The notes below the pieces were generated by a model that was not told where the DNA came from, ran no database searches, and saw only the letters and a list, made by a program, of their open reading frames with translations. From Rhodonellum psychrophilum GCM71 = DSM 17998 (GTDB taxonomy: Bacteria > Bacteroidota > Bacteroidia > Cytophagales > Cyclobacteriaceae): a stretch of DNA of 64,000 nt. A program made the translations under genes and the position numbers. Shown in pieces: positions 2,878-5,789 of this stretch (positions within the stretch are counted from its first letter, which is position 1; the number at the start of each line of letters is the position of its first letter). Location: positions 138,638 through 202,637 of the forward strand of contig NZ_KB906677.1 of assembly GCF_000381545.1 (NCBI RefSeq), given 5' to 3'.

Positions 2878-3471
2878 TTATAGTTTTAGAAAGTTGCTCA
2901 GAATCTTTTCTCCCACCAAGCCACTTTTCTCGGGGTGTGCCTGCATGGCATAGAAATTATCCCGATGAAGCAATGCCGAGAAATCTTTGATATAGTGGGT
3001 TTGGGCAATGGTAAATTCGCTCAGTTCTGCATAAAAACTATGGACATAATACACAAAGGATTCGTCATCCAAGCCCTTCAATAAGGGTGACTTCAAGTCA
3101 AAAAGATTGTTCCAGCCGACGTGAGGCACTTTGGATTCTGCATAGCTTTCGGGAAGGAATTTTTTGACCTTCACCGGAAATACTCCCAGACATGGGGTTT
3201 TGTTTTCCTCCGAATGCGAACATAGCAATTGAAGTCCCAGACAAACCCCGAAAAAAGGTTGTTTCAAATTAGGGATAAGTTTGTCAAGGTTCCTTTCCTT
3301 GAGATAATTCATCGCGGTGCTGGCTTCTCCCTGACCGGGGAAAATGACCTTGTCTGCCTTGGTGATCTCATCCACCTCATCGGTAAGTACAGCTTCTGCC
3401 CCCAAACGTTCCAAAGCATATAGGACGGATTGCACATTCCCTGAATTGTATTTTATGACTGCTACTTTCAT
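2878..3471 (-). CDS. hisH: Imidazole glycerol phosphate synthase, glutamine amidotransferase subunit
   Basis: HisH hydrolyses glutamine and channels ammonia to HisF. This 197-residue class I amidotransferase has the nucleophile C77 in GVCLGLQLL and the His/Glu pair H179/E181 in MQAHPEKSG, completing the triad; the oxyanion strand FPGQGEA is at about 44-50. It is the first his gene in the window. hisG, hisD, hisC and hisB are not upstream of it; phhA is there instead, so the pathway's first half must lie elsewhere. Confidence 0.95.
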   Translation of the reverse strand: MKVAVIKYNSGNVQSVLYALERLGAEAVLTDEVDEITKADKVIFPGQGEASTAMNYLKERNLDKLIPNLKQPFFGVCLGLQLLCSHSEENKTPCLGVFPVKVKKFLPESYAESKVPHVGWNNLFDLKSPLLKGLDDESFVYYVHSFYAELSEFTIAQTHYIKDFSALLHRDNFYAMQAHPEKSGLVGEKILSNFLKL

Positions 3472-3608: not shown

Positions 3609-4406
3609 TCAATTGATTTTCTGTTCCTTGTTTGTCAACTCTTCCAGCATTTCCTCCAACACGGATTCTATTTCGGGCAATGAGGCAAACAATTGCTCAT
3701 AGCTTTCTATGATGAAATATTTGTCTTGGAATTTATTTTTCCAATAAGGTGTGTTCAATATTTTTCGGACATCGTACTGATAATGGGCGGGCTCCTCCGA
3801 AAGACTGAATTTGGTTTCTCCAGCGGAACTCAAAATTCCGGCACCGTAGATTTTCAATTCCCCCTCTTCTCTGATCAAGCCAAACTCAATGGTAAACCAG
3901 TAAATCCTGGAGATCAATTCGATTGCCATTTTATTGTCAATGTGCTTCAATGCTATTCCACTCAATTGCTGGAGAAAATCAACATAATGCTGATTGGTAA
4001 GCATGGGCATGTGGGCAAAAGCATCATGAAACATGTCCGGCTCTTCCAGATAATCCAACTGTTCCATTTTCCTCAACCAAGTGGAAGAAGGGAAACGCTT
4101 GTTGAACATCAAGCCAAAAAACAGGTCATCATCGATCAATCCAGGAACAACCTGTATGGCCCAACCCGTAGTATTGGCCAATTTTTGGTTCACCTCCTCA
4201 AAATCAGCGATACGATCCGAAGAAAAATTGATTTCCTTGATTCCTTCCAAATAGGCTTTTGTTGCTGCGTCGGGAAGATTGACAATCTGTCTTTCAAACA
4301 AAATTTTCCAGACTTTAAAATCCTCTTCCGTGTAGGCCTCGTATTCCTGTTTCATTTCTTTTAGTCTTGGGTCACTGAAGACCCAGTCATTTGGTTTTGC
4401 TATCAT
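3609..4406 (-). CDS. phhA: Phenylalanine 4-monooxygenase
   Basis: A pterin- and Fe(II)-dependent aromatic amino acid hydroxylase converting phenylalanine to tyrosine. The 265-residue chain has the size of the bacterial single-domain enzymes. The iron facial triad is visible: H127 and H132 in EEPDMFHDAFAHMP, and E174 in the WFTIEFGLI segment. The usual Gly before the second His is Ala here. It follows a leader peptide and attenuator rich in Tyr and His codons (separate entries), which suggests it makes tyrosine rather than degrading phenylalanine. It stands alone between the trp operon and hisH. Confidence 0.93.
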   Translation of the reverse strand: MIAKPNDWVFSDPRLKEMKQEYEAYTEEDFKVWKILFERQIVNLPDAATKAYLEGIKEINFSSDRIADFEEVNQKLANTTGWAIQVVPGLIDDDLFFGLMFNKRFPSSTWLRKMEQLDYLEEPDMFHDAFAHMPMLTNQHYVDFLQQLSGIALKHIDNKMAIELISRIYWFTIEFGLIREEGELKIYGAGILSSAGETKFSLSEEPAHYQYDVRKILNTPYWKNKFQDKYFIIESYEQLFASLPEIESVLEEMLEELTNKEQKIN

Positions 4407-4527: not shown

Positions 4528-4563
4528 AAAAAAGCCTAATCCAAAAATGGGTTAGGCTTTTTT
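4528..4563 (-). terminator. Attenuator terminator in the phhA leader
   Basis: On the minus strand AAAAAAGCCTAA pairs perfectly with TTAGGCTTTTTT, with an additional CC/GG pair toward the loop, ending in a U-run: a strong intrinsic terminator located between the leader peptide and phhA, about 120 bp before the phhA start. The segment GGGATAGG (plus strand 4588-4595 as CCTATCCC), directly after the leader stop codon, is complementary at 7 of 8 positions to CCTAACCC in the 5' arm, so it could form a competing antiterminator. Confidence 0.75.
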
Positions 4564-4595
4564 GTAAGCATATACATACAACAGCGACCTATCCC

Positions 4596-4649
4596 TTAGG
4601 AAATTAAATGATAATGGAAATAGGAAATGCTGCTTTTGCTTTGATTCAT
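4596..4649 (-). CDS. Leader peptide of the phhA attenuator (17 residues, Tyr/Phe/His-rich)
   Basis: The short frame reads MNQSKSSISYFHYHLIS and stops 32 nt before the terminator hairpin. Codons 10-14 are Tyr-Phe-His-Tyr-His, the kind of regulatory codon cluster found in ribosome-mediated attenuators. The stop codon abuts the candidate antiterminator arm (4588-4595). A ribosome finishing the peptide would cover that arm and let the terminator form; one stalled at the Tyr/Phe/His codons would leave it free. Phe and Tyr are substrate and product of PhhA; the His codons are of interest because hisH-A-F-IE follow. Peptide, hairpins and spacing are seen directly; the regulation is inferred. Confidence 0.65.
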   Translation of the reverse strand: MNQSKSSISYFHYHLIS

Positions 4650-4653
4650 GTTG

Positions 4654-4684
4654 CTAAGATACTATTTACTTGGCGACTTGCCAA
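4654..4684 (-). promoter_or_regulatory. Candidate promoter of the phhA leader
   Basis: On the minus strand, TTG (4684-4682), 20 nt, then TATCTTAG (4661-4654), one mismatch from the Bacteroidota -7 consensus TAnnTTTG. The box ends only 4 nt before the leader ATG, so the transcript would be nearly leaderless. Confidence 0.4.
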
Positions 4685-4769: not shown

Positions 4770-5789
4770 TTACAACAGGGAAAATGTTTTCCTTAAGGCA
4801 AAAGTTTTGCGGATCTGATCTGCCAATAGTGCACTTTGAGCAAAATCCAAGGTTTGTTGACCGTCAGAATATGCCAATTCAGGTACTTGGTGCGTTTCAT
4901 AAATGATGCCGTCAGCACCGGCCATCACCCCAGCAAGTGCCATTTGAGGGACATAAGCCCGTATGCCCATCCCATGTGAAGGATCCACAATCACTGGCAA
5001 ATGTGATTTGGCTTTCAATATTGGTACTGCATTCAAATCCAAGGTATTCCTGCTGGCCCTTTCATACGTTCTGATTCCTCGTTCGCAAAGGATCAGTTTT
5101 TCATTGCCCCCTGAAAACACATATTCGGCAGATTGCAGCAATTCCTCTATGGTGCCAGAAATCCCTCTTTTGATCATAACGGCTTTGTCCACTTTACCCA
5201 ATTCATCCAATAGATTGAAGTTTTGGGTGTTTCGCGCACCTACTTGGTAGATGTCTACATAAGGGTACATTTCCTCGATCTGGGAAACCTGCATCACTTC
5301 GGTTACGATTTTGATACCCGCTTCTCTTGCGAGGTTGTACCACAATATCAAGCCTTCCAAACCAAGTCCCCTAAAGGCGTAAGGACTGCTTCTGGGTTTG
5401 AAAACCCCTCCACGCATCATGGTAATCCCATTGTCCTTCAAGTGTTGGATCACGCTTTTGATCTGTTCTTCTGATTCAATCGAGCAGGGCCCTGCAATAA
5501 TGGCCATGTCTCCATCTTTGATCAAAATCCCATCTCCCAAATCAATGGAAGTAGGCTTTGCTTTCCATTTTTTGGAAACCATTTTGTACTCGTCGGAAAC
5601 AATATGGATATCCTGAATCCCTTCCTTGTGACCAATGCGCCTGATGTCAATTTCCTTGGATCCGATGCCTACCAAATATTCACCCAATTGGGTTTTAACT
5701 TCGGTAATTTTATAACCCATCTGATTGATTTCCAATATGATGGATTCTTTTTGTGGCTCGGTAATGTCTAACTTAAGTTGAATGATCAT
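4770..5789 (-). CDS. aroF: 3-deoxy-7-phosphoheptulonate (DAHP) synthase, type I beta
   Basis: First step of the shikimate pathway: erythrose 4-phosphate plus phosphoenolpyruvate gives DAHP. The 339-residue protein has a ~70-residue N-terminal ferredoxin-like regulatory domain of the kind seen in type I beta enzymes. The catalytic barrel follows, with IAGPCSIES (metal-binding Cys, about residue 100), KPRSSPYAF, GARNTQNFNLL and VDPSHGMG. It follows trpA by 4 bp, so it is the last gene of the trp operon and its supply of chorismate precursor is tied to tryptophan demand through the trp attenuator. Confidence 0.9.
   Translation of the reverse strand: MIIQLKLDITEPQKESIILEINQMGYKITEVKTQLGEYLVGIGSKEIDIRRIGHKEGIQDIHIVSDEYKMVSKKWKAKPTSIDLGDGILIKDGDMAIIAGPCSIESEEQIKSVIQHLKDNGITMMRGGVFKPRSSPYAFRGLGLEGLILWYNLAREAGIKIVTEVMQVSQIEEMYPYVDIYQVGARNTQNFNLLDELGKVDKAVMIKRGISGTIEELLQSAEYVFSGGNEKLILCERGIRTYERASRNTLDLNAVPILKAKSHLPVIVDPSHGMGIRAYVPQMALAGVMAGADGIIYETHQVPELAYSDGQQTLDFAQSALLADQIRKTFALRKTFSLL

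Follow-up and report, generated by a model that had tools for sequence, protein, structure and literature searches.

A predicted tyrosine- and histidine-sensing leader-peptide attenuator upstream of the phenylalanine hydroxylase gene phhA in Rhodonellum psychrophilum and other Bacteroidia

In Rhodonellum psychrophilum GCM71 = DSM 17998, the phenylalanine hydroxylase gene phhA is very probably preceded by a ribosome-mediated transcription attenuator, with PhhA supplying tyrosine beside TyrA and the His codons of the leader serving the his genes located behind phhA (we put the probability at about 0.86). The window analyzed here is the whole stretch of 64,000 nucleotides from contig NZ_KB906677.1 (positions 138,638 to 202,637). 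The parts of the putative attenuator, their conservation, their pairing and their spacing can be read from the DNA itself and are described below.

The host belongs to the Cyclobacteriaceae; in a protein search its PhhA was 80-85% identical to the proteins of Cecembia, Belliella, Mariniradius and other members of the family. On the minus strand, the trpE-G-D-C-F-B-A operon is followed by a DAHP synthase gene, the leader element, phhA, hisH, hisA, hisF and hisIE, the his run extending to position 331. PhhA scored 278.7 bits against the NCBIfam equivalog NF008877, above the cut-off of 247, and 259.4 against TIGR01267, narrowly under the cut-off of 264.75. A weak terminator-like hairpin with a T-rich tail (3574-3553, minus strand) lies in the gap between phhA and hisH and might uncouple the his genes. 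The genes and predicted elements, in the order in which they would be transcribed, are:

4770..5789, minus strand: DAHP synthase gene (aroF type), last gene of the upstream trp operon, just before the attenuator (NCBIfam NF006421, TIGR01361)
4681..4684, minus strand: predicted -33-like promoter element TTGG, read from the sequence, 19 nt upstream of the -7 box
4654..4661, minus strand: predicted -7 promoter box TATCTTAG (Bacteroidota consensus TAnnTTTG), ending 4 nt before the leader ATG
4596..4649, minus strand: predicted leader peptide frame MNQSKSSISYFHYHLIS, 17 codons, ATG at 4649 and stop codon TAA at 4598-4596, like the Tyr or Tyr/His leaders at 83 curated loci
4617..4624, minus strand: possible protector segment 1 CCTATTTC, which can pair with the antiterminator segment in ribosome-free folds
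4588..4595, minus strand: predicted antiterminator segment 2 GGGATAGG, immediately following the stop codon and 12 nt past the last sensing codon
4528..4563, minus strand: predicted intrinsic terminator, segments 3 and 4, AAAAAAGCCTAACCCATTTTTGGATTAGGCTTTTTT, a 36-nt hairpin of -16.9 kcal/mol followed by a U-run
3609..4406, minus strand: phhA, phenylalanine 4-monooxygenase, 265 aa (NCBIfam NF008877, Pfam PF00351)
2878..3471, minus strand: hisH, the first his gene after phhA (NCBIfam TIGR01855)

The first-pass annotation had described promoter boxes, a 17-residue frame, a segment adjoining its stop codon with 7 of 8 positions complementary to a terminator arm, a hairpin with U-run and then phhA, and every one of these details is confirmed, the elements ahead of phhA lying at 4528-4684. 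The sensing codons of MNQSKSSISYFHYHLIS would be Tyr10, Phe11, His12, Tyr13 and His14. The complementarity joins GGGATAGG to CCTAACCC (4556-4549); 24 bases separate GGGATAGG from the terminator hairpin, and another 121 nt lie between the hairpin and the phhA start at 4406. The attenuator region folded 3.5 SD better than dinucleotide shuffles. When a ribosome was masked at Tyr10-His14, the antiterminator was the preferred fold (-15.4 to -16.2 kcal/mol) as long as the 3' arm had not yet been synthesized, and when it was masked at the stop codon of the window's leader the antiterminator did not form. In the ribosome-free fold of the window GGGATAGG is sequestered by CCTATTTC, which allows the terminator to form. 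Present in the window, this protector pairing was significant in just 3 of the 83 curated loci, and a protector segment 1 conserved across relatives was dropped on this count. Rfam covariance models, run at gathering score over the whole window, returned SRP RNA and one tRNA only, with no amino-acid leader family or T-box.

The predicted promoter, TTGG-N19-TATCTTAG, matches five of the six fixed positions of TAnnTTTG in a comparison with the consensus alone. In relatives, there are mostly 4-5 nt between the end of a TAnnTTTG-like box and the leader ATG, and the consensus at the -33-like position is TTTG/TTG. Two studies of Bacteroidota give the consensus TAnnTTTG and show where it lies with respect to the start of transcription (PMC7366714, PMC9723704), the sigma-A box of Flavobacterium spanning -12 to -5 (PMC9723704). 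With a box of this span placed 4-5 nt before the ATG, transcription is predicted to start within a few bases of the AUG, and the leader mRNA would be nearly leaderless. Such a start is unusual, because only 4-6% of Bacteroidota mRNAs are leaderless or have very short 5' leaders according to the same studies (PMC7366714, PMC9723704), and it poses a testable question, namely how such leaders get translated.

A sample of 240 distinct phhA loci of Bacteroidia was gathered by protein search, and their upstream regions were scanned with a detector that required a frame of 8-40 codons, at least four Y/H/F/W in some seven residues and a thermodynamically supported terminator within 110 nt. By construction the detector is biased towards aromatic and His residues, and this applies equally to the shuffles. 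Leader and terminator were found upstream of phhA in 91 of the 240 regions, compared with 6 of 480 dinucleotide shuffles. Curation by eye reduced the 91 loci to 83, eight being dropped as wrong frames or chance (L025, L028, L059, L124, L220, L224, L231, L241). Typical leaders are MNPTPRTYVHHSYHFLQ (Algoriphagus), MKNLSVKYYSYYYHFLPEKD (Echinicola) and MNQTYHSYSHYHTSFWG (Litoribacter), and also MNFSAQNYYYYYYYREASCFGAGTGMRSL and MNNYYYYYYYRMMSFGMGVVCS; in Echinicola the leader was present in 10 of 11 genomes. Leader and terminator also occur at loci without an upstream DAHP synthase gene (L029, L048, L066).

The closest relatives (Cecembia, Belliella, Aquiflexum, Mariniradius and others; L002-L018, L084-L102) have the order DAHP synthase-phhA, often followed by his genes, with no leader or terminator before phhA, the exceptions being two Litoribacter genomes (L009/L095, L097) that do carry a leader. 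A displaced leader elsewhere was found in none of the leader-lacking close relatives except Algoriphagus winogradskyi, whose leader is placed some 900 nt upstream of phhA. Since most of the nearest relatives share the gene order and are devoid of the element, it has been lost or gained more than once. In Litoribacter ruber (L009:660-1320), more than 600 nt, including a GC-rich palindromic stretch, separate the DAHP synthase gene from the phhA leader. At another locus (L021), the region upstream of phhA contains a terminator and a well-matching antiterminator (ATCAGGTTAAGG/CCTAACCTGAT), and the leader, MNTVRRRWY, has no Tyr/His run, though hisH follows.

Shuffle tests of the antiterminator pairing at each locus were individually weak (p<=0.05 in 42 of 83) and were replaced by a swap test over 37 representative lineages, in which terminator arms were exchanged among lineages in 5000 permutations. 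The stretch following the sensing codons paired with its own arm at a mean score of 18.6, compared with 14.1 (sd 0.47) for swapped arms, and none of the 5000 permutations reached the observed value. This result is covariation of the antiterminator with the terminator across lineages. The antiterminator/arm pair is CCTAATCC/GGATTAGG in Echinicola and CCTATTCC/GGAATAGG in Algoriphagus; within Algoriphagus, nearly all of 31 distinct sequence pairs retain the eight core pairs, GU pairs and one compensated change (L139) included. An extended covariation between the Algoriphagus terminator loop and the antiterminator gave a weak signal (one loop position at 59 of 2000) and was set aside. The antiterminator starts a median of 12 nt past the last Tyr or His codon, the distance being 7-18 nt in 30 of the 37 lineages. 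About the same distance separates the A site of a ribosome from its leading edge, so that stalling on the last sensing codon would just leave the antiterminator free. Leader, antiterminator and terminator thus recur in relatives with co-varying sequences, as ribosome-mediated attenuation predicts, and this supports the architecture proposed in the first-pass annotation.

Tyr is the near-universal sensed codon of the curated leaders, in runs of up to seven. Tyr runs such as YYYYYYY are seen where no his gene follows, and mixtures of Tyr and His where his genes follow. Among the 82 curated leaders with known downstream context, His was present in the leader core in 56 of 58 with his genes downstream, versus 6 of 24 without (Fisher p 4e-11, relatedness ignored). 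On the tree there are about six changes in his-gene state and eight in His-codon state, and a paired test was not significant, there being too few supported pairs; the link of His codons to downstream his genes is therefore best described as a co-occurrence, a strong trend and not proof. To that extent, the earlier suggestion that the His codons are tied to the his genes behind phhA is supported. Exceptions exist in both directions: L171/L173 have a Tyr-only leader and his genes downstream, and L204 and L243/L244 have a His codon and no his gene downstream. In three of the six leaders that contain His and are not followed by his genes (L044, L066, L158), the His codon is not part of the Tyr run. 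Throughout Algoriphagus the His codons are conserved, and HH, HHH or HHHH are found in some leaders. Phe, also considered a sensed amino acid at the outset, was rejected: its codons are not consistently conserved, and codon 8 of the Algoriphagus leaders varies between Tyr and Phe. Conservation in relatives thus extends to the leader, to the covariation of antiterminator and terminator and to the Tyr/His codons, but not to the Phe codons, nor to the closest relatives, which mostly have no leader.

The first-pass annotation had further read PhhA as a tyrosine-biosynthesis enzyme and raised the absence of tyrA from the host genome. Both tyrA and pheA were found there, and the absence of tyrA was rejected; PhhA would hence be a second, additional source of tyrosine and not the only one. 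Across leader-bearing genomes, TyrA passed the Pfam cut-off (PF02153) in 21 of 41, about half having no clear tyrA, and nearly complete genomes such as G023, whose leader has seven Tyr codons, gave no TyrA match. One locus (L053) has the order DAHP synthase, YYYYYYY leader, phhA, aminotransferase and a tyrA-like gene over the PF02153 cut-off, and in one single-contig Echinicola genome TyrA is located at 125.5 kb and phhA at 2.985 Mb. The tyrosine-degrading enzyme HPPD is over cut-off in 40 of the 41 leader-bearing genomes and is present in the host genome, so PhhA may serve catabolism too. Transposon fitness data place Echinicola vietnamensis PhhA in tyrosine synthesis (PMC7311316). The biosynthetic role of PhhA is favoured by these data, but as a sole route to tyrosine it is contradicted by the presence of tyrA. 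An enzyme usually seen as degradative is probably controlled like a biosynthetic one; the leader gives, at the level of regulation, a specific argument for regarding PhhA as tyrosine-making in a large bacterial group, and it fits genetic data for which no mechanism had been given (PMC7311316).

We infer that the leader is translated, that ribosomes stall within it, that polymerase reads through the terminator, that phhA and the his genes are co-transcribed and that the system responds to starvation. RNA polymerase would begin transcription at the promoter, a few bases ahead of the leader AUG, and produce a nearly leaderless message. When Tyr-tRNA and His-tRNA are charged, the ribosome would reach the stop codon and cover GGGATAGG, and the terminator would form before phhA. 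When Tyr or His is short, the ribosome would stall on codons 10-14 with GGGATAGG free just ahead; the free segment would pair with the 5' arm of the terminator and the polymerase would read into phhA and probably on into hisH-A-F-IE. PhhA would then act as a tyrosine supplier beside TyrA, and the His codons would serve the his genes of the same transcript. On balance, we also favour a broader proposal, in which a widespread class of near-leaderless, Tyr-sensing attenuators of Bacteroidia places PhhA under biosynthetic control, with His codons added where phhA joined his genes. One stalled ribosome would then report two unrelated amino acids and co-induce two pathways, and leader codons would track operon make-up.

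The element could instead be the ordinary terminator of the upstream trp-DAHP synthase operon next to a chance short frame, with phhA driven by its own promoter downstream. The hairpin is a good one between two genes, the 121 nt before phhA could hold another promoter and the element is entirely missing from most of the nearest relatives. Against this stand a recurrence of leader and terminator far above shuffles, the co-varying antiterminator with its fixed ribosome spacing and the loci at which the element occurs with no DAHP synthase upstream (L029, L048, L066), and we regard this explanation as highly improbable. It is also rather improbable that the attenuator is real and PhhA serves phenylalanine breakdown, the leader merely balancing tyrosine supply during catabolism. 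For a degradative gene, a switch opened by lack of tyrosine works in the wrong direction; moreover, the neighbours are biosynthetic (trp, DAHP synthase and his, with the aminotransferase and tyrA at L053), TyrA is over cut-off in only 21 of the 41 leader genomes and the Echinicola vietnamensis fitness data point to synthesis (PMC7311316). What speaks for breakdown is the usual description of bacterial PhhA as catabolic and the nearly constant presence of HPPD in leader-bearing genomes.

A sensor of Tyr only, in which His codons are a by-product of Tyr codons (CAT/CAC being one base from TAT/TAC) and the his genes are uncontrolled, seems unlikely, yet has several observations on its side: Tyr is near-universal, the leaders of L171 and L173 have Tyr only despite the his genes behind them, and the weak terminator-like hairpin lies between phhA and hisH. 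The single-base relationship of the codons is set against the concentration of core His in leaders followed by his genes, the His codons outside the Tyr run in three of the six leaders that lack such genes, and the retention of His codons over Algoriphagus together with the HH, HHH and HHHH leaders.

The predicted phhA attenuator resembles the trp, his, pheA, thr and ilv attenuators of E. coli/Salmonella in having a short leader in which codons for the regulated amino acid cluster, an antiterminator and intrinsic terminator that share one arm, and a promoter immediately upstream; the thr and ilv leaders are known to sense more than one amino acid. It differs from them in its target, a phenylalanine hydroxylase, and in combining Tyr and His, which belong to unrelated pathways and are matched to genes in the transcript. 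It differs also in the position of the antiterminator segment, which in the window's clade sits on the stop codon, in a protector segment that is not conserved, in the nearly leaderless start and in the lack of a matching Rfam family. A survey from 2010 knew of leader-peptide attenuation only in Proteobacteria, Actinobacteria and the Bacilli case that it described itself (PMC2965389). In the same phylum as our host, strong clues for such attenuation before amino-acid operons were reported for Flavobacterium psychrophilum, the available portion of the study containing no phenylalanine hydroxylase case or Tyr/His leader (PMC9723704). The phhA leaders show that such attenuation is likely at work in Bacteroidota, for which the Flavobacterium study gives clues only.

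Tyrosine synthesis by phenylalanine hydroxylase was described for Echinicola vietnamensis, Dyella japonica and Legionella pneumophila (PMC7311316). The enzyme role is the same, and Echinicola, of the same family as our host, carries the leader; the work concerns mutant fitness and, in its available portion, proposes no regulation. Another regulated bacterial phhA, that of the Pseudomonas aeruginosa phhABC operon, is under PhhR/sigma-54 control as cited in PMC1173090, but this is a protein activator of a catabolic operon, opposite in sign and mechanism. A described attenuator of a phenylalanine hydroxylase gene was not found in the open-access literature; as far as searched, the mechanism is classical, and the target, the pairing of Tyr with His and the leaderless start are new.

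The same genome contains related leaders that serve as positive controls, and their codons match the pathway products. Upstream of trpE, the leader MEKIQNQYWWWQNHFLSGKRPFAVA (12723-12646, minus strand), with three Trp codons (WWW), is followed by a terminator (12620-12589, minus strand), and the segment 12723-12589 is evidently a trp attenuator. In the aro-pheA-tyrA cluster, a Phe/Tyr leader MLFAAPSYFTFYYFYFRPAGRIGAGY (YFTFYYFYF) and a terminator precede one of two tandem DAHP synthase genes (L077:2034-2176; G000:C13). Leader codons could help in deciding which pathway neighbouring genes serve. In front of the operon that begins with hisG and encodes the other half of the his pathway lies a separate His-rich frame MNSCLSHTAKFFASAHAGSVHHSHHSS, preceded by a -7-like box (L276:1156-1239; G000:C3). 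After this frame the detector found no terminator with U-run, and the hisG operon may be controlled differently, for example at translation.
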